Shown: positions 31,274-40,336 of the stretch, one piece after another
Layout: every line of letters begins with the position of its first letter
Position numbering within the stretch: the stretch's first letter is position 1
NCBI GenBank assembly: GCA_022482625.1
Contig: JAKVOU010000001.1
Location: forward strand, 372,001-436,000
Direction: 5' to 3'
Length of the DNA stretch: 64,000 nt
Source of the DNA: Spirochaetia bacterium
GTDB lineage: Bacteria > Spirochaetota > Spirochaetia > Sphaerochaetales > Sphaerochaetaceae
Notes under the pieces: model-generated
Told to the model about the DNA's origin: nothing
The model's database searches: none
Seen by the model: only the letters and a program-made list of their open reading frames with translations
Made by a program: the position numbers and the translations under genes

Positions 31274-32713
31274 TCAGGGAGAAATAAGGAAAGGCTGGTC
31301 AACCAACAGAGACCTGTAGCGGTAATCAATGGTGTTGAGAGTTTTTCCTGGTATTGCATAGCCATTGCTGACAGTGCACTTCTGATTTCTCAATTCATGA
31401 AAAATCCTGCCTATATCAAGTCCTTGGGAAGAAAATTCCTTATCAAGGAGTGATGTAATCATTGAAGCTATGAACAAAACAAGGAACTGTCCCTTGATTG
31501 CTTGCAGTGAATTGCCTACTGGAAATCCTGTCAGCATGCCAAAGTCTTTGTTCGCCTTGTTTTTTGTACAGAAAAGTGGCAATACCTGATCTATCGGAAG
31601 GTCTGCAGAAGAGACAAACACAGAGGTTCCTTCGCATGTATGGTTGATTTTTTCTTTTTGCTTGTATCCTGTAGGCATAGTTTGGTTGTTGGCTAAAGTA
31701 AGATAAGCATATACAGGAATTCCGTCTCCAAACAAATAAGGAATTTTCTTGATGAAGTACTGTTTCATGCCATAGGTAACGATATTTTCAGGTCCATAGG
31801 TTTTTGAAGAATAAGAATCGACGATTTCCCTGAACAAGGAACTACCAGGGACCAAATCAGTAATGTAGGCGATTGCTTCCTTATGAAGCAATGACAGCAA
31901 GGTTTCAGGCAATTGACGGTTATCAGGAATGGTAAAATCTGTAGCTATGCCATATTTATGTAAGATACTGATCGTCTTGGCCATAGGTTGCACAAGGTCA
32001 GATACGCTGTCAAGGCCATAAGAAAAATAAAGTGGAAGTCCTGATGATCTTTCAGCGACATAGAGCAACCGTGAGGGAAATAAGTCTGATGATGATGAAA
32101 AAAAAGTATTGCAGTCCGACTTTTGGTTTTGCGAAGGAACATCGACAAGAATACCATGAATATCCTTTTCTTGTGAAAGTTTTCCAAAATATGCTGTAAA
32201 AAACCTGTTTTGTATTTCTGTACTCCCTAGGTACTCCAACAATGCGGAAATTCCCTCTGTATCCAGCTCAGCTTTCGGAAACAGATGTTTTACAAAGTTT
32301 CCATACCACCATGGCTGCACGTACTCCAAGGGACCAGGGGAGAGAATATGGTAAGCAAGCAGTGAAAAAAACGTATCAGACACGCCTGGTGCCATATTTT
32401 CGAGAATTCCATAGTAAGGCGTCTTCTGCAGAAACGAAAAAAGAAAGTGACTATCGCCAAAATCAAGGAGTTCTGCCTCACTGACAGGTATCTTTGATAT
32501 ATGGTAGGACGCAGAAACCGGTTCAAAGCCTCCTTCTAAGGTATACTTGAAGGTCCCTTGTTTCCTATTGGAAAAGAGGCTGTTTTCCTTGTCTAAGACA
32601 CGTCCAAGATACGTCATCTGGTTGACTTTCTTTCCTTTGATACGCTTTGGCAGGCAGACGGATGCATACTCGTTGTTACCTTTTCTTTCATAGCGTATGA
32701 ATTGCTTGGCCAT
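31274..32713 (-). CDS. Transposase-like protein with eroded catalytic motifs
   Basis: This 479-aa protein resembles IS1634/IS4-type transposases: an N-terminal NEYASVCLPKRIKGKKVNQMTYLGRVLDKENSLFSNRKQGTF and a C-terminal LRNQKCTVSNGYAIP are both typical. The first Asp (GILVDVPSQ) and a second (FTIPDNRQ) are kept, but the G-Y after the second Asp is gone. The E-containing helix that carries the third catalytic residue reads KNKANKDFGML, with no acidic residue in place. The frame is nonetheless full length. The ATG at 32713 has AAAGGA 9 nt upstream. No terminal repeats were found around it. It may be a recently decayed copy or a domesticated gene. Confidence 0.72.
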   Translation of the reverse strand: MAKQFIRYERKGNNEYASVCLPKRIKGKKVNQMTYLGRVLDKENSLFSNRKQGTFKYTLEGGFEPVSASYHISKIPVSEAELLDFGDSHFLFSFLQKTPYYGILENMAPGVSDTFFSLLAYHILSPGPLEYVQPWWYGNFVKHLFPKAELDTEGISALLEYLGSTEIQNRFFTAYFGKLSQEKDIHGILVDVPSQNQKSDCNTFFSSSSDLFPSRLLYVAERSSGLPLYFSYGLDSVSDLVQPMAKTISILHKYGIATDFTIPDNRQLPETLLSLLHKEAIAYITDLVPGSSLFREIVDSYSSKTYGPENIVTYGMKQYFIKKIPYLFGDGIPVYAYLTLANNQTMPTGYKQKEKINHTCEGTSVFVSSADLPIDQVLPLFCTKNKANKDFGMLTGFPVGNSLQAIKGQFLVLFIASMITSLLDKEFSSQGLDIGRIFHELRNQKCTVSNGYAIPGKTLNTIDYRYRSLLVDQPFLISP

Positions 32714-32725
32714 AGAGCACATTCC

Positions 32726-32755
32726 TTTGTGGTGAGAAAATATTCTCACCACAAA
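32726..32755 (-). repeat. Perfect 13-bp hairpin before the transposase-like gene
   Basis: TTTGTGGTGAGAA (32726-32738) and TTCTCACCACAAA (32743-32755) pair around a 4-nt loop. In the minus-strand transcript the 3' arm runs into the AAAGGA ribosome-binding site, so folding could limit translation. A dyad operator is also possible. Confidence 0.75.
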
Positions 32756-33035: not shown

Positions 33036-33064
33036 TTGACACAATTTTTATAATGAAGTAGAGT
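33036..33064 (+). promoter_or_regulatory. Promoter for the metal/lar operon
   Basis: TTGACA (33036-33041), a 17-nt spacer and TAGAGT (33059-33064) predict a start near 33071 and a leader of about 210 nt. A TATAAT at 33049 lacks a matching -35 box. Confidence 0.5.
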
Positions 33065-33077
33065 ACTTTTCGAAAAA

Positions 33078-33098
33078 CAGGTTTCAGGAAGAAATCTG
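33078..33098 (+). promoter_or_regulatory. Leader hairpin with AGGAA loop
   Basis: CAGGTTTC (33078-33085) pairs with GAAATCTG (33091-33098), with one G-T, around an AGGAA loop. A second leader hairpin (33154-33168) shows the same loop. A GGA in a hairpin loop is the CsrA target pattern, but a role here is only inferred. Confidence 0.45.
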
Positions 33099-33135
33099 AC
33101 AATAACATTCATAAATCATTTTACTTTCGTTAAAA

Positions 33136-33193
33136 GACCATGAAGGCCAAATTGGGATAGGAAATCCCTGTTTTGCTTCTATGGTCTTTTTTT
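33136..33193 (+). promoter_or_regulatory. Terminator-like attenuator in the lar operon leader
   Basis: GACCATGAAG (33136-33145) pairs with CTTCTATGGTC (33176-33186), with a bulged T, and a run of seven T follows. Inside, GGGAT/ATCCC (33154-33158, 33164-33168) closes an AGGAA loop. No plus-strand gene lies upstream, so the structure can only act on the operon's own transcript. It looks like an attenuator or riboswitch expression platform, or a read-out of an RNA-binding protein. The ligand is unknown. Confidence 0.6.
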
Positions 33194-33283
33194 ACGCTTC
33201 AGTCTTCAGAAATATTTTCTTGTGACAGAAAAACAACTATGACTGCAACTGCTTAGATAAATTTATACTGAATGGAGGTATTT

Positions 33284-34087
33284 ATGCAGCAATTCCATGA
33301 CACTGACTCCAGCCGTGCATTCTGGGATGCCATGGCAAGTTCCTTTTCCAAAGACAGCACTTTGCCCGACATCCAACATGACAGGACAATGAAACTGATC
33401 ATGGAAAACCAAATGATAGGACCGGACAGAAAAATCCTTGATATCGGTTGTGGTACAGGACGACATGCCTTCGCATTGGCACAGGAAGGTGCAACTGTCA
33501 CTGGCATTGATTTTTCTTCAAAGATGCTTGCCGCAGCAGAATCAAAAAGGAAAGGAATGACTGATGTCAGTTTTTCTCTTCTTGACTGGTCACAGATCGA
33601 CCTGGACCATGAAGGATGGAATCATTGCTTTGATCTCGTACTTGCCAATATGACACCTGCGGTTTCCTCTGATGAAACATTGCTCAAGATGTGCCAGGCT
33701 TCCAAAAACTGGTGCCTTATAGCAAAACCGACAAGAAGGATAAACTCGGTACTGGACCCTTTGCTGGAAATTTCCGAAACTCAAAGGGACCGGACTGCCT
33801 TAGATGAAAGTTTTGTACATATGTTTGATTTACTTTGGGCATCAGGTTACTGTCCCAACATTACTTATGAAAAACAAATCTGGCATTCCTGCGAACCGAT
33901 CATAAAAGCAATTCGCATGTATACCGACCGCATCGCTTCAAAAAAAGAACTTAGCAAAGACCAGCAGGACCATATAGTGGACTACCTGCAGTCCATTGCT
34001 GTCAATGGACAGGTTGAAGAAGAAACACACGTGACTGTTGCTACACTTTACTGGCAAGTCATTGATGAAAAAGGGAGAAGGCTATGA
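33284..34087 (+). CDS. Class I SAM-dependent methyltransferase
   Basis: This 267-aa protein has a Rossmann-type methyltransferase fold. Motif I is KILDIGCGTGRHAFALA (50-66). An acidic strand end, VTGIDFSSKML, binds the ribose of SAM, and the post-I region is LVLANMTPA. The ATG at 33284 has GGAGG at 33274-33278; an upstream in-frame ATG at 33272 overlaps that site and is rejected. It is the first gene of the operon and overlaps the FmdE-like gene by 4 nt (ATGA). The substrate is unknown; a small molecule or metal ligand tied to the cofactor pathway is an inference from the operon. Confidence 0.85.
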   Translation: MQQFHDTDSSRAFWDAMASSFSKDSTLPDIQHDRTMKLIMENQMIGPDRKILDIGCGTGRHAFALAQEGATVTGIDFSSKMLAAAESKRKGMTDVSFSLLDWSQIDLDHEGWNHCFDLVLANMTPAVSSDETLLKMCQASKNWCLIAKPTRRINSVLDPLLEISETQRDRTALDESFVHMFDLLWASGYCPNITYEKQIWHSCEPIIKAIRMYTDRIASKKELSKDQQDHIVDYLQSIAVNGQVEEETHVTVATLYWQVIDEKGRRL

Positions 34088-34620
34088 CTCAACATGAATT
34101 ATGGGAAAAGGCAGTTGCTTTTCATGGGCATGAATGTCCTGGACTTGCAATAGGTGTGCGGGCAAGCATGATTGCTATGAAAAGATTGAAAATCAATGAC
34201 AGGGCCAAGGATGAAGAACTTGTCTGCATAACCGAAAATGATGCCTGCGGAGTCGATGCCGTACAAGCATTGCTTGGCTGTACACTTGGCAAAGGTAATT
34301 TGATTTTCCGTGATACAGGGAAACAGGCATTCAGTTTCTACGAACGAAAAACAGGAAGCAGCTTCAGGATTGTACTGAACCAACTGCCCAAGGAACTGAA
34401 CAGGAACGAAAAGATCAACTACATACTTACCGCTGATGAAGAAAAAGTATTCTCATCCACACCTGTCAAATGCCAAATACCGGAAAGAGCCCGTCTGTTT
34501 ACATCGGTCCAATGTGAAACATGCCACGAATATGCCTCTGAAGGCAGGATACGTCTGCAGAATGGCAAGAAAGTCTGCATGGATTGCTTTGTTCCATATG
34601 AAAGGTGGGAAAAAAGATGA
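34084..34620 (+). CDS. FmdE-family protein with zinc ribbon
   Basis: This 178-aa protein belongs to the FmdE family, named from a gene next to molybdenum formylmethanofuran dehydrogenase; its exact function is unsettled. The metal-site motif FHGHECPG gives His14, His16 and Cys18. ACGVDAVQALLGCTLGKGNL (54-73) contributes Cys55 and Cys66. A C-terminal zinc ribbon has Cys144, Cys147, Cys165 and Cys168. It overlaps the methyltransferase and the binding-protein genes by 4 nt each. FmdE genes often lie beside metal transporters, so a role in metal handling fits. Confidence 0.88.
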   Translation: MTQHELWEKAVAFHGHECPGLAIGVRASMIAMKRLKINDRAKDEELVCITENDACGVDAVQALLGCTLGKGNLIFRDTGKQAFSFYERKTGSSFRIVLNQLPKELNRNEKINYILTADEEKVFSSTPVKCQIPERARLFTSVQCETCHEYASEGRIRLQNGKKVCMDCFVPYERWEKR

Positions 34621-35771
34621 ACAGATTCACTATAACATCAATGATCATGTTACTTTGTCTGAGCCTTTCAGTGACAGTCAGTTGTACAAAGAAAGAAACC
34701 AGCAGCCAACGTGCACAAGGAACAATTTCAAAGGAAGAGGCCACTGCAACGGTACAAGACAATGCCGAACCTACAAAAATGCGTACAGTTACAGACCTGT
34801 TCGGACGGCAAGTCCAAGTACCTGAAGAAGTAAAGACAATAGCCGCAATAGGGGGAGCCGCACGGCTCCTGACGTATGCCGGGTGCGCTGACAAACTTGT
34901 CGGTGTAACGGATATGGACAAGGAAAATATACCTTCCATGCCATATACAGTTGTCAATGCTGACCATTTTGCAAAAATTGGGAGCGTAGGAAAAGGAGGT
35001 AGCAAAGATGTCTGCTACCCTGAGAAACTTGTAACCCAATCTCCAGATGTCATATTTGCCTTGACTGATCAGGATACGGTGCAATCTATCCAAGAACAGA
35101 CGGGTATACCGACCATTGCCCTGTCTGTCGATGATATGTTTGACGTAAAGCTCTACAAAAGTCTGATGCTTGTAGGAGACATCATGGGAACCGATAGCCA
35201 ATGCAACCAAGTAGTGGATTACATCAAGTCCTGCCAGAAAGACCTAGATGCAAGGACACGGGACATTCCTGAACAAAACAAACCCACTGTCTATACCGGA
35301 GCTGTCAGTTTCAGAGGGGCCCATGGTTTTGAAGGAACTTATGGTGCTTATCCTCCTTTTGATGCCATCCATGCCAAGAATGTCGTCGACAGTACCGGAA
35401 CAAAAGGAGCACTATTGGTTGACAGAGAAAAAGTTGTCGTTTGGAATCCTGATATCATTTTTCTCAATCCTACGAACCTACAGCTTGTGCGTGATGATTA
35501 TCCCATTCATAGATCGTTCTATGACAGCTTGACCGCAGTACAGGAAGACAAGTTATATGCACAGATTGCCTACAACTACAACTGGACGAATATTGAACTC
35601 TCCATTGCCGATGCCTACTATGCAGGAAAGATCATCTATCCTGAGGCCTTCAGTGATATTGATCCTGCTAAAAAGGCTGATGAAATATTTACAGTTATGT
35701 TAGGAAAGCCTATTTATCAGTCTTTGCAGGACGCAGGACTGGGATTCGGGCGATTGAAAATCAAGGATTGA
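34617..35771 (+). CDS. ABC importer substrate-binding lipoprotein (BtuF/FecB type)
   Basis: This binding protein for a metal or metal complex is 384 aa from the ATG at 34617 (ATGA overlap with the FmdE gene). The lipoprotein signal ends in SVTVSC with the lipidated Cys near residue 23. The mature protein has the two-lobe Peripla_BP_2 fold: TVTDLFGRQVQVPEEVKTIAAIG is the usual opening, followed by PDVIFALTDQ and a long linking helix. The class covers siderophores, haem, cobalamin and, in Helicobacter NiuBDE, nickel. Next to larE-larB-larC, nickel is the best guess. Confidence 0.88.
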   Translation: MNRFTITSMIMLLCLSLSVTVSCTKKETSSQRAQGTISKEEATATVQDNAEPTKMRTVTDLFGRQVQVPEEVKTIAAIGGAARLLTYAGCADKLVGVTDMDKENIPSMPYTVVNADHFAKIGSVGKGGSKDVCYPEKLVTQSPDVIFALTDQDTVQSIQEQTGIPTIALSVDDMFDVKLYKSLMLVGDIMGTDSQCNQVVDYIKSCQKDLDARTRDIPEQNKPTVYTGAVSFRGAHGFEGTYGAYPPFDAIHAKNVVDSTGTKGALLVDREKVVVWNPDIIFLNPTNLQLVRDDYPIHRSFYDSLTAVQEDKLYAQIAYNYNWTNIELSIADAYYAGKIIYPEAFSDIDPAKKADEIFTVMLGKPIYQSLQDAGLGFGRLKIKD

Positions 35772-35779
35772 TAGAGACA

Positions 35780-36838
35780 ATGAAACGATGTCAAGAAAAA
35801 AACTATGAAGGATATATACACAGGAAAATCAGCATCATCATTTGCATGGGAATACTTGCAGTTGTTGTTTCTATAATTGCAATCGGGGCAGGGGCATCCA
35901 ATCTGAGTTTTTTTTCAGTAGTACAGACACTTCTGGGACATGGGACGAAACAGGCAAAGATTATCATCTTCGATATCAGGTTACCGCGGATCATTGCCGC
36001 CTGTGTAGCGGGCATCGGCCTTGCAGTATCAGGTTGTGTCATGCAGAGTATCCTGAAGAATCCTCTTGCTTCCGCATCGACACTTGGAGTTTCTCAAGGA
36101 GCGGCCTTTGGGGCTGCCTTTGCCATTATTGTCCTTGGTGCAGGAATGACAGACCAAGCGGCAGATAGCGTTGCTATTGCAAATCCCTATCTTGTTACGT
36201 GCTGTGCCTTCATAAGTTCGATGCTTTCAACCTTTGTAGTTCTTGGACTTTCACGATTCCGACACATAACACCGGAAACGATGATACTTTCAGGCGTAGC
36301 CCTCAGTGCATTGTTTTCCGGAGGCACGACACTTTTGCAATATTTCTCATCTGATGTAAAATTGGCTTCTGTAGTATTCTGGACATTCGGAGACCTTGGA
36401 CGTGCCTCATGGAAAGAAATTGCAGTAATGTCTGTAGTTACTTCTGCCTTGCTGTTGTATGCATTGTATAACAGATGGAACTACAATGCTCTTCTTTCTG
36501 GCGAGCAATCTGCAAAAAGCCTTGGTGTCAGCGTAGATGTGTTACGGATGGTAGGTATGGTCCTTTGTTCCCTTGCCGCTGCAACTATTGTTTCTTTTGT
36601 CGGGATCATCAATTTCATTGGCTTGATTGCACCGCATCTGATGCGAAGGCTGGTAGGAAGCGATTACCGTTTTCTTCTACCGACATCGGCATTATGCGGA
36701 GCCTTGCTGATGTTGCTCAGTGATACAGCGGCTAGGATGATCATCTCTCCGATAATCCTACCTATCGGAGCAATAACTTCATTCCTTGGAGCACCATTGT
36801 TTCTTTATCTACTTGTAAAGGGGGCAGACAGATGCTGA
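35780..36838 (+). CDS. ABC importer permease (FecCD/BtuC type)
   Basis: This is the membrane subunit of the importer, 352 aa from the ATG at 35780. It has about ten helices. The conserved RLPRIIAACVAGIGLAVSGCVMQSILKNPLASASTLGVSQGAAFG (about 57-102) is the FecCD family block, and GIINFIGLIAPHLMRRLVGSDYR (about 272-294) is the coupling-helix region that meets the ATPase. A TTG at 35768 is an alternative start but has poor spacing. It overlaps the ATPase gene by 7 nt. Confidence 0.93.
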   Translation: MKRCQEKNYEGYIHRKISIIICMGILAVVVSIIAIGAGASNLSFFSVVQTLLGHGTKQAKIIIFDIRLPRIIAACVAGIGLAVSGCVMQSILKNPLASASTLGVSQGAAFGAAFAIIVLGAGMTDQAADSVAIANPYLVTCCAFISSMLSTFVVLGLSRFRHITPETMILSGVALSALFSGGTTLLQYFSSDVKLASVVFWTFGDLGRASWKEIAVMSVVTSALLLYALYNRWNYNALLSGEQSAKSLGVSVDVLRMVGMVLCSLAAATIVSFVGIINFIGLIAPHLMRRLVGSDYRFLLPTSALCGALLMLLSDTAARMIISPIILPIGAITSFLGAPLFLYLLVKGADRC

Positions 36839-37626
36839 TGCAGATACATGGCATGGGCTTTGGCTATACATCCCATTCTCCTATATTGACGGATATCTGC
36901 TTTGACGTTTCAGAGGGAGAAAGTATTGCCGTACTCGGCAACAACGGAGCAGGCAAGAGTACGTTAATCAAGTGCATCGATCGGATTCTCAAGCCAAATC
37001 TCGGTACCGCATACATCAATGGCAATGATACCCGACAAATGAAACGAATGGAACTTGCAACGAATATTTCTTACGTACCTCAACAGGGTGAAACTGACAG
37101 ACTTACTGTATTTGATTCCGTCTTGCTCGGAAGGAAACCATACATGAAGGGAAATCCATCTGAAGAAGATCTTAAGCTGACTGCAGATGCCATATGCAGG
37201 ATGGGATTGCAAGGTCTTGAATTAAGATATCTTAATGAATTGTCTGGTGGTGAATTACAGAAAGTCATGCTTGCAAGGGCCTTGGCGCAACAGCCGAAAG
37301 TACTACTCTTGGATGAACCGACAAGCAATCTTGATCTCCATAACCAATATGAAGTGCTTGCCAACATTACGGCCATTGCCGAAGAGCAAAGGTTCGGAGT
37401 TGTCATTGTCATACACGATCTGAATTTGGCACTTCGTTATTGCAGCAAGTTTCTGTTTCTCAAGGACAGAAAGGTCTTTGCTTACGGTGGTACCGAAGTA
37501 ATGACAGAGAAAATAATCGACGAAGTCTATGGTCTGCCTGTCGCAGTTGAGACAGTATGTGGAATCAGGACTGTAATTCCATTACCACAGGAAGATACCG
37601 CTAAGAAAATAAGGATAACATCATGA
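36832..37626 (+). CDS. ABC importer ATPase (FecE/BtuD type)
   Basis: This is the nucleotide-binding subunit of the importer, 264 aa. Walker A is GNNGAGKST (36-44), the Q-loop is VPQQGE, the signature is LSGGELQK (137-144), Walker B is VLLLDEP (157-163) and the switch His is in VIHDLN. The ATG has GGGGG upstream; a second ATG 6 nt later is possible. It overlaps larE by 4 nt (ATGA), which ties the importer tightly to the cofactor genes. Confidence 0.95.
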   Translation: MLMQIHGMGFGYTSHSPILTDICFDVSEGESIAVLGNNGAGKSTLIKCIDRILKPNLGTAYINGNDTRQMKRMELATNISYVPQQGETDRLTVFDSVLLGRKPYMKGNPSEEDLKLTADAICRMGLQGLELRYLNELSGGELQKVMLARALAQQPKVLLLDEPTSNLDLHNQYEVLANITAIAEEQRFGVVIVIHDLNLALRYCSKFLFLKDRKVFAYGGTEVMTEKIIDEVYGLPVAVETVCGIRTVIPLPQEDTAKKIRITS

Positions 37627-38378
37627 CATTGGAAGATTTTTTTGCCTTGCATGACAATTGTGCAGTCTGCTTTTCCGGTGGATGCGATTCAGCTTATTTA
37701 CTATATGAAGCCATGAAATCGGCAAAATCAGTCTGTGCGTACTATGTAAGATCAGCGTTTCAGCCACAAGTTGATCTTGAAGATGCGAAGAAAATTGCCG
37801 ATATGTTACATGCTCATCTTACAATAGTAGATATTGATGTATTGTCTGATACGAAGATCAGAGAAAACAGCACCTTGCGATGCTACTATTGCAAGAAAGC
37901 AATCATGGCTGCAGTAAAAAAACAGGCTGAAAAGGATGGAAAACCTGTAATACTTGACGGCACCAATGCTTCTGATGAAGTTTCAGACCGTCCAGGTATG
38001 AAAGCTTTGGAAGAAGAGGGCATCCTGTCACCCTTGCGATTATGTGGTTTGACCAAGAAGGACATAAGGGAATCATCGAAACTGGCTGGTCTTTCAACAT
38101 GGGACAAACCTGCAAATGCCTGTTTGGCAACAAGGATTCCTTGTGGAACTGAATTGTCATTATGTCAGCTTCAAATAATCGAAACCGTTGAAGATGGTCT
38201 CAGGAAACTTGGTTTTTCTGATTTTAGGGTAAGAGAACGAGGCTCAACAGCTAGACTTGAGGTGCCTATACAGCAGCTTTCAATGGCAATTTGGCAACGT
38301 TATGAAATACTCGGCATACTGCAGCCTTATTTTTCAGATATTGTACTCGATCTCAAAGGAAGAAAAGGAACAGACTAA
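37623..38378 (+). CDS. larE: LarE, sulfur insertion for the nickel-pincer cofactor
   Basis: LarE adenylates the carboxylates of the pincer precursor and turns them into thiocarboxylates. This 251-aa protein has the PP-loop SGGCDS (18-23). ACLATR contains Cys167, at the place of the sacrificial Cys176 of Lactobacillus plantarum LarE. Cys87 and Cys90 (RCYYCKK) give, with Cys167, a three-Cys set like that of LarE proteins reported to hold a 4Fe-4S cluster and act catalytically. It shares ATGA with the ATPase gene before it and one base with larB after it. Confidence 0.93.
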   Translation: MTLEDFFALHDNCAVCFSGGCDSAYLLYEAMKSAKSVCAYYVRSAFQPQVDLEDAKKIADMLHAHLTIVDIDVLSDTKIRENSTLRCYYCKKAIMAAVKKQAEKDGKPVILDGTNASDEVSDRPGMKALEEEGILSPLRLCGLTKKDIRESSKLAGLSTWDKPANACLATRIPCGTELSLCQLQIIETVEDGLRKLGFSDFRVRERGSTARLEVPIQQLSMAIWQRYEILGILQPYFSDIVLDLKGRKGTD

Positions 38379-39133
38379 TGGAAAAGAAAGAGATACGTCA
38401 GTTGCTTGAACAAGTCGCAGATGGAAGGTTATCTATCGATAAGGCTTTGCTCAAACTTAAGATGGAACCGTTTGAGGAATTAGGTTTTGCCAAAATTGAT
38501 ACTCATCGTTCACTCAGGCAAGGAGTCAGTGAGGTGATATATGGAGCTGGAAAAACCGTAGAACAGATGTCAGCTATAATCAGTGCAATGCTACAGCAAG
38601 GTCAAAAAACAATTCTTATTACACGATTGACAGCTGCAGCAGCAGAACAACTTGCAGCAGACTATGCACTTGATTACCGTAGTGCTGCAAAAATCGGTAT
38701 CATAGGAATGGTACCGAAGCCGGATGGTGTTGGAAAGATAGTGGTTGCAACCGGCGGTACGAGCGATTTTCCCGTGGCAGAGGAAGCGGCAATAACGGCA
38801 GAGGTACTGGGTAATCAAGTTATCAGGCTCTATGATGTCGGTGTCGCTGGCTTGCATCGGCTTTTGGCGCATCTTGAAGAAATCATGGATGCCCAAGCAA
38901 TCATTGCTGTAGCCGGCATGGAAGGAGCACTTGCCAGCGTCATCGGTGGTTTGGCAGATTGTCCTGTCATCGGCGTACCGACCAGCGTAGGGTACGGTGC
39001 ATCATTCAATGGGCTTTCAGCATTGCTGTCAATGCTGAACAGCTGTGCCAGCGGAGTAAGCGTCGTAAACATAGACAACGGTTTCGGTGCCGGTTATCTG
39101 GCAAGTATGATCAATCATGGAAAGGAGAAATAA
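38378..39133 (+). CDS. larB: LarB, pincer cofactor carboxylase/hydrolase
   Basis: LarB carboxylates the pyridinium ring of nicotinic acid adenine dinucleotide and cleaves it to the mononucleotide, the first step of nickel-pincer nucleotide synthesis. It is 251 aa. The C-terminal half is PurE-like (KIVVATGGTSDFPVAEEAAITAEVLG about 116-141, AGMEGALASVIGGLADCPVIGVPTSVGYG about 179-207). The N-terminal LLEQVADGRLSIDKALLKL is the usual LarB opening. Its start overlaps the larE stop by one base (TAATG). larC follows 3 nt after the stop. Confidence 0.94.
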   Translation: MEKKEIRQLLEQVADGRLSIDKALLKLKMEPFEELGFAKIDTHRSLRQGVSEVIYGAGKTVEQMSAIISAMLQQGQKTILITRLTAAAAEQLAADYALDYRSAAKIGIIGMVPKPDGVGKIVVATGGTSDFPVAEEAAITAEVLGNQVIRLYDVGVAGLHRLLAHLEEIMDAQAIIAVAGMEGALASVIGGLADCPVIGVPTSVGYGASFNGLSALLSMLNSCASGVSVVNIDNGFGAGYLASMINHGKEK

Positions 39134-39136
39134 CAG

Positions 39137-40336
39137 ATGAAGACATTATATCTTGAATGTACTATGGGAGCTTCCGGTGATATGCTTACCGGAGCATTGC
39201 TTGAATTATTGCCAGATGCAAAGTCATTCATGCAACGTCTTAATGGCCTTCAGATTCCTGGTGTGTCAATTACTTCAGCCAGCTGTACGAAATGTGGTAT
39301 CGTCGGTACACATGTTACGGTAAGCATACACGGAACTGTCGAGGGAGAGGTTCATACCCATGAGGAAGAGCATAACCACCATGGGCATGAGCATCATCAC
39401 CATGAAGGCCTTCACGGAATTGAACATATCGTACATCATCTAGACTTGGATAAACAGGTTGAAAGCGATGTGCTCAATGTCTATCAGTTGCTTGCGGAAG
39501 CCGAAAGCCATGCCCATCAGATGCCGGTTGAAATGATACATTTCCATGAAGTCGGCATGATGGATGCTGTTGCTGATATCGTCAGTGTCTGCATGCTCAT
39601 CAGAGAACTTGCACCGGAAAAAATAGTGGCATCTCCAGTCAATGTGGGAAAAGGACAAGTATCCTGTGCACATGGAATACTTCCTGTTCCAGCTCCAGCT
39701 ACTGCATACTTACTAAAAGGTATACCGACGTATAACAATGAAATTGAAGGTGAACTTTGCACGCCGACCGGAGCTGCCTTGCTTAAATATTTCGTAAATA
39801 GTTTCGGCCCAATGCCATTGATGGCAACAGACGCAATAGGCTACGGTATGGGAAGCCGTGATTTTCCTGCTGCGAATTGTCTCAGGACATATCTAGGAAA
39901 TACTGGAGATCAGAATAAAGACACAGTCATCTCATTAAGCTGCAACCTAGATGATATGACTGGAGAAGATATTGGTTATGCCGAGGAATGTCTGCTTACA
40001 GCAGGGGCCCTGGATGTCTATACAATTCCCATCGGTATGAAAAAAGGCCGACCAGCCGTAAGACTTTGCTGCATGTGCAACAAGGAAAGCGAACAGGCAA
40101 TGGTAGCATTGTTGTTCAGACATACCACGACACTTGGCATGCAGAGAATAGAAATCCAAAGATATGTCCTGGAACGCAATGAGAAAACCGTACAGACTGA
40201 TTTGGGTCCTGTAGAAGTTAAGCAAGCAACAGGCTGGAATATCTCAAAGAAGAAATTCGCTTATGAGGATTTGGCTGGCATAGCAAAAAAGCACAATATG
40301 CCATTGTCTGAAGTAAGAAAAAAAATGCCGCAGTAA
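39137..40336 (+). CDS. larC: LarC, nickel insertase for the pincer cofactor
   Basis: LarC inserts nickel into the pincer dithiocarboxylate using CTP. This single 399-aa frame covers both parts that are joined by programmed frameshifting in L. plantarum. The opening ECTMGASGDMLTGALLELL is the DUF111 motif. A His-rich stretch (73-101, fourteen His) should store or present nickel. VEMIHFHEVGMMDAVADIV and TPTGAALLKYF follow. The C-terminal half has CNLDDMTGEDIGYAEECLLTAGALDVYTIPIGMKKGRP. It is the last gene of the operon. Confidence 0.95.
   Translation: MKTLYLECTMGASGDMLTGALLELLPDAKSFMQRLNGLQIPGVSITSASCTKCGIVGTHVTVSIHGTVEGEVHTHEEEHNHHGHEHHHHEGLHGIEHIVHHLDLDKQVESDVLNVYQLLAEAESHAHQMPVEMIHFHEVGMMDAVADIVSVCMLIRELAPEKIVASPVNVGKGQVSCAHGILPVPAPATAYLLKGIPTYNNEIEGELCTPTGAALLKYFVNSFGPMPLMATDAIGYGMGSRDFPAANCLRTYLGNTGDQNKDTVISLSCNLDDMTGEDIGYAEECLLTAGALDVYTIPIGMKKGRPAVRLCCMCNKESEQAMVALLFRHTTTLGMQRIEIQRYVLERNEKTVQTDLGPVEVKQATGWNISKKKFAYEDLAGIAKKHNMPLSEVRKKMPQ

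Follow-up and report, generated by a model that had tools for sequence, protein, structure and literature searches.

What controls an operon for import and nickel-pincer cofactor synthesis when a transcription terminator stands between its promoter and its first gene, and what recognizes the similar hairpin loops that are repeated in its leader? The window (the whole 64,000-nucleotide stretch of DNA that we analysed) raises this question on its plus strand.

The operon and its leader

The operon starts at 33284 with a gene for a SAM-dependent methyltransferase (33284-34087, plus strand like the rest of the operon; Pfam Methyltransf_31), which has a homologue in 11 other loci, mostly FmdE operons. 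Next come FmdE with a C-terminal dksA/traR-type zinc finger (34084-34620) and an ABC importer made up of a Peripla_BP_2 binding protein, a FecCD permease and an ATPase (34617-37626), both identified with Pfam. The last genes are larE, larB and larC for synthesis of the nickel-pincer cofactor (37623-40336), identified by NCBIfam equivalogs above the cut-offs, and the gene after larC is on the opposite strand. The first-pass annotation stated that no plus-strand gene lies upstream. We found this to be true between 29801 and the promoter, where the genes are all on the minus strand, so the leader serves the operon starting at 33284.

A degenerate IS1634-like transposase gene (31274-32752, minus strand) lies beside the operon. 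It scored 21 bits with NCBIfam, far under the cut-off, and had no Pfam match; a perfect 13-bp inverted repeat (TTTGTGGTGAGAA/TTCTCACCACAAA) is at 32726-32755, at the start of this gene. We rejected an insertion-sequence origin of the leader for two reasons: a DNA-level search of the genome gave no further copy of the transposase-like gene, and the matches to the leader are leaders of Clostridia. A genome search found no second copy of the leader itself.

Promoter. The promoter (33036-33064, plus strand) has TTGACA at 33036-33041 and TAGAGT at 33059-33064, with 17 nt between them. Taken alone this match is at chance level. Relatives have TTGACA-N17-TATNNT boxes 5-25 nt before the first hairpin, and the window promoter is placed alike.

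Hairpins and terminator. The first element of the transcript is P1 (33078-33098), an 8-bp hairpin with the sequence CAGGTTTC-AGGAA-GAAATCTG and a folding energy of -8.2 kcal/mol (z -4.1, with 0 of 200 shuffles as stable). The intrinsic terminator (33132-33193) has an interrupted stem (33132-33190) and a run of seven T (33187-33193), and it aligns to the terminator helices of model R3 (described below). Its stem at 33134-33194 folds at -24.7 kcal/mol (z -4.6), and none of the shuffles was as stable. The apical hairpin of the terminator, P3 (33154-33168, GGGAT-AGGAA-ATCCC), is unremarkable by itself when its folding is compared with shuffles (z -0.7), and relatives have the same type of apical loop. 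The AGGAA loops of P1 and P3 are at 33086 and 33159. When we read the sequence, the promoter, P1, the terminator with its T run and the second AGGAA hairpin were all where the first-pass annotation had put them, and the two loops were indeed 73 nt apart. That observation was right and understated, and it overlooked P2.

P2 is a putative antiterminator hairpin with the core CC-ATGAA-GG at 33138-33146 (flanks GACC...GGCC, 33136-33148), which is shared with relatives. It is wholly within the 5' arm of the terminator, about 37-39 nt after P1, and is thermodynamically weak alone, with only about 2-3 bp. It competes with another hairpin, since CTTTCGT (33124-33130) can pair with ATGAAGG of the P2 loop (33140-33146) before the terminator is complete; this may be a third competing fold. 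The ribosome binding site GGAGG and the ATG of the first gene are at 33274-33286. A predicted hairpin around them (33251-33289) is no stabler than shuffles (z -1.05).

Two other arrangements were considered and rejected. A ribosome-mediated attenuator with a leader peptide would need a start codon and a short reading frame before the terminator, and inspection found no ATG, GTG or TTG in 33066-33136. A long-range pairing of 33074-33081 with 33167-33174 as the antiterminator is not generally kept in relatives, although L022 has a similar pairing.

A recurrent element ahead of homologous operons

We used the methyltransferase gene of the operon as a marker and did not find it in three genus-mates, nor in the 139 genomes of the same family and 393 of the same phylum that were searched. 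As the operon was not found in the three genus-mates, nor the marker in the near relatives, we drew covariation from homologous operons of other phyla, fetched by FmdE similarity and mostly from Clostridia. Our initial pattern scan required a promoter and missed several true leaders, which we read by eye.

The related leaders share a plan. A TTGACA-N17-TATNNT promoter is followed within about 25 nt by the start of P1, then by a linker and an intrinsic terminator. A short P2 in the terminator's 5' arm repeats the loop of P1, and there is often a third loop at the tip. The loops are ANGAA (AAGAA, ACGAA, ATGAA or AGGAA) or NGAA, and the linkers are about 20-100 nt with no conserved core. Homologues of P1 were present in 26 other leaders, with an ANGAA loop on a variable stem. 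The P2 core CCATGAAGG is identical in L069, L087, L089, L090 and L106, longer P2 stems occur in L078, L106 and L108, and an apical loop like P3 is found in L047, L069, L088, L089, L093 and L108.

The nearest leader is that of L069, which is ahead of genes for FmdE, a binding protein, a permease, an ATPase, larE and larB. Its P1, P2 and P3 are CGGACC-ATGAA-GGTTCG, AACC-ATGAA-GGG and GCTGC-AAGAA-GCAGC, against GGTTTC-AGGAA-GAAATC, GACC-ATGAA-GGCC and GGGAT-AGGAA-ATCCC in the window. The stems vary with compensation across the family while the loops are kept, and the window carries all three loop sites.

To count the loops we took 51 leaders of FmdE/FecBCD/lar operons, chosen irrespective of the motif and not fully independent of each other, and considered hairpins with a stem of at least 6. 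Loops of the [A]NGAA type (counted as [N]NGAA) made up 33 of 86 hairpins, spread over 26 leaders; in roughly half of the leaders there was no strong loop hairpin. The reverse strand of the same leaders, used as a control, gave 1 such loop in 58 hairpins, and dinucleotide shuffles gave a mean of 0.5 and a maximum of 3. The surrounding DNA (1.47 Mb, counted on both strands) had this type of loop in 52 of 3415 hairpins (Fisher p of 1e-33 against the leaders). In the full pattern an ANGAA hairpin (stem of 6 or more) is followed by YCANGAAGR and then by a T run. The window has one occurrence of it, and 60 simulated 64-kb sequences have none.

We also built covariance models that excluded the window; their E-values are rough. 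Model R2, from six leaders, matched the window leader with 33.8 bits (E 7e-4), and model R3, from 23 leaders, matched it with 53.5 bits (E 4.7e-8), the next match having 16.3 bits. Of the 25 pairs in the alignment of 23 leaders, 18 vary on both sides, compared to 10.2 for shuffles and at most 9 for slid controls, a count that is flattered because the alignment was fitted to the structure. Another count, on the separate alignment A5, was set aside as biased, as its hairpins had been picked for pairing.

The window leader is thus matched by R2 and R3, has [A]NGAA loops at the places of P1 and P2, and is followed by genes for FmdE, a FecBCD-type importer and LarE/B/C. It belongs to a recurrent RNA element found ahead of homologous operons. 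The first-pass annotation had proposed that an attenuator controls this operon and that its repeated loop has a meaning, and the loop enrichment, the covariation and the R3 match bear this out. It also named missing covariation and missing hairpins in relatives as grounds for doubt, and both covariation and hairpins are present in the homologous Clostridia operons.

Genes behind the element

We scanned 391 Clostridia genomes with R2 and obtained 28 matches at E <= 0.01, of which 23 directly precede genes of the transport/FmdE/lar/methyltransferase set. Eleven of these are ahead of CbiM/NikM (several fused to PDGLE) and seven are ahead of FmdE or lar operons. The remaining downstream genes are ECF S components (two), SBP_bac_5 (one), DUF3842 followed by SBP_bac_5 (one) and a methyltransferase (one). 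At least four matches (L096, L098, L102 and L103) resemble unrelated terminators, and L087 had no identified downstream gene. In addition, L005 was fetched only for its FmdE and also has two sites before its cbiM.

Nickel/cobalt importers, FmdE and lar predominate downstream, and this gene content points to the element as a mark of a nickel, possibly nickel/cobalt, uptake regulon.

Comparison with known RNAs

No family of Rfam 15 matches the element. For the window and its relatives there was no significant match at gathering or relaxed thresholds; the first-pass annotation had thought that a NiCo or other hit would decide the matter, and RF02683 (the NiCo riboswitch) matched neither the window nor any of 17 other motif loci. 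We found no description of the element in the literature, in a search that was incomplete, so it is possible that it has been described elsewhere. The main text of two large structured-RNA surveys (PMC8632094, PMC11109978) does not mention nickel, cobalt or cbiM. As far as Rfam 15 and the searched literature show, the element is an undescribed switch family.

The NiCo (czcD) riboswitch is associated with efflux genes. Like our element it is a regulatory leader RNA tied to nickel/cobalt genes, but the element lacks its junction fold and precedes importers, not efflux genes. A paper cited in PMC11477304 is said to have reconsidered the NiCo class as an iron sensor.

Proposed mechanism

On balance we favor reading the leader as a transcription-antitermination switch that belongs to an undescribed family, controls nickel (possibly also cobalt) uptake and use, and is bound by a trans-acting protein. 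In the default state the terminator would form and the operon would be off. When nickel is scarce, an RNA-binding protein encoded elsewhere would bind the loops of P1 and P2, and perhaps P3; P2 held by the protein would block the terminator, and read-through would turn the operon on. Nickel would then release the protein and restore the terminator.

The terminator stem uses every P2 nucleotide for pairing, and P2 and the terminator therefore cannot form together. Because the downstream genes are importers, we expect read-through under nickel scarcity. If the RNA bound the metal itself the sign would be reversed, which makes a protein that binds at low nickel the best candidate. A protein is also favored because P2 in the window has so few base pairs and the linkers have no conserved core. 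Judging from gene content, from which the direction of the switch, its effector and the metal are all read, a protein rather than an ion is the likeliest effector. We compared the neighbor genes of the homologous loci and found no conserved regulator or RNA-binding gene beside the operons.

Alternative readings

It is possible, but we think unlikely, that the leader is a riboswitch, in which the tandem [A]NGAA loops dock together and need no protein to bind Ni2+, another metal ion or a nickel compound. Short repeated hairpins with conserved purine loops in a nickel/cobalt regulon would suit such a reading. Small hairpin pairs can be aptamers, as in guanidine-II (mini-ykkC), which has the loop ACGR and offers a precedent: its hairpins are likewise small and arranged in tandem, their loops are identical and the linker between them varies. 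Our element differs from it in the loop, in having no loop self-complementarity and in its genes. There is no conserved linker or junction and the loops are not mutually complementary, which argues against this reading. Moreover, the conserved P2 is the antiterminator, so a ligand would switch the importers on when the metal is plentiful. The first-pass annotation had mentioned an uncharacterised metal-sensing RNA; its link to nickel stands, through the genes downstream of the relatives, but the regulatory logic favors a protein as the sensor over the RNA. If the riboswitch reading were true, this would be a minimal metal riboswitch class controlling nickel uptake across Clostridia and in the bacterium of the window.

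We consider it improbable that an ANTAR-domain regulator is the protein that binds the tandem loops and causes antitermination. The logic is the same: in the ANTAR targets of eut, nas and ami leaders (PMC3369931, PMC8934654) there are two conserved-loop hairpins, the second is concealed within the terminator's 5' arm, so that hairpin and terminator exclude each other (PMC8934654) as they do in the window, and binding leads to read-through. The window's genome has an ANTAR gene, as do 15 of 20 motif-bearing genomes. However, ANTAR targets are defined by hexanucleotide loops with A at position 1 and G at position 4 (PMC8934654) and by a linker of 5-12 nt between the stems (PMC3369931), and their stems have 3 bp. 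In the element the [A]NGAA loops are 4-5 nt, P1 has a stem of 6-9 bp, the linkers are long and variable (about 20-100 nt), and the tip of the terminator often provides a third site. The window departs from the definition in the same way, with 5-nt loops and its long linker, and agrees with it in having a second hairpin that excludes the terminator. The ANTAR gene is absent from five of the 20 motif genomes, including that of L069, the nearest leader. In the window's genome the ANTAR-domain protein (L110 2982-3668; G000:C1 about 1849981-1850667) is encoded directly behind glutamine synthetase, a position that suggests a role in nitrogen control.

A constitutive leader, in which the terminator merely keeps basal expression low or marks the end of a small RNA and there is no regulated switch, seems to us quite improbable. 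The window terminator is far stabler than P2, as would be expected without a switch, but the loop type recurs at two or three places per leader with changing stems, and mainly before one set of functions.

CsrA-type control through GGA loops, which was one suggestion of the first-pass annotation, is hardly credible: P1 and P3 do display AGGAA in hairpin loops, as CsrA/RsmE sites do, and a similar L022 hairpin weakly resembles RsmZ (23 bits, under the gathering score of 44), but a search that was positive in three control genomes found no csrA in the window's genome, which is 98.6% complete, csrA is also absent from the genome of L019 with its AGGAA loop, most relatives carry AAGAA, ATGAA, ACGAA or NGAA without GGA, and the conserved part of the [A]NGAA loop is GAA, with GGA as just one variant.

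Possible extent and use of the regulon

Among organisms that have NikABCDE, only a minority were found to have NikR as well (PMC2667541), so for much of nickel regulation no regulator is known. The antitermination element that we favor is a lead on nickel control in such bacteria: it occurs upstream of NikM/CbiM, FmdE/FecBCD and lar operons and would predict a nickel regulon from sequence, and it could be used as bait for finding the regulator. Behind it would be a new RNA-binding metal regulator, or else the RNA would be a new metal riboswitch. The element also ties the poorly understood FmdE-type importers and the associated methyltransferase to nickel.

Some less expected genes are found beside the element. 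A two-site element in L005 (8964-9051; GGTATC-ATGAA-GATACC, GGCC-ATGAA-GGTT and a terminator) lies ahead of a NuoE-like gene, which may encode a subunit of a hydrogenase or dehydrogenase, and the regulon may take in enzymes besides transporters. S components of ECF transporters lie behind the element at L100 1219-1749, L105 876-1418 and L054 6650-7165 (a weak match in L054), and are possibly related to nickel/cobalt. DUF3842 genes recur beside the element (L022 1206-1589, L043 7712-8095, L089 1870-2283 and L095 993-1403), which makes DUF3842 a candidate nickel-related protein.
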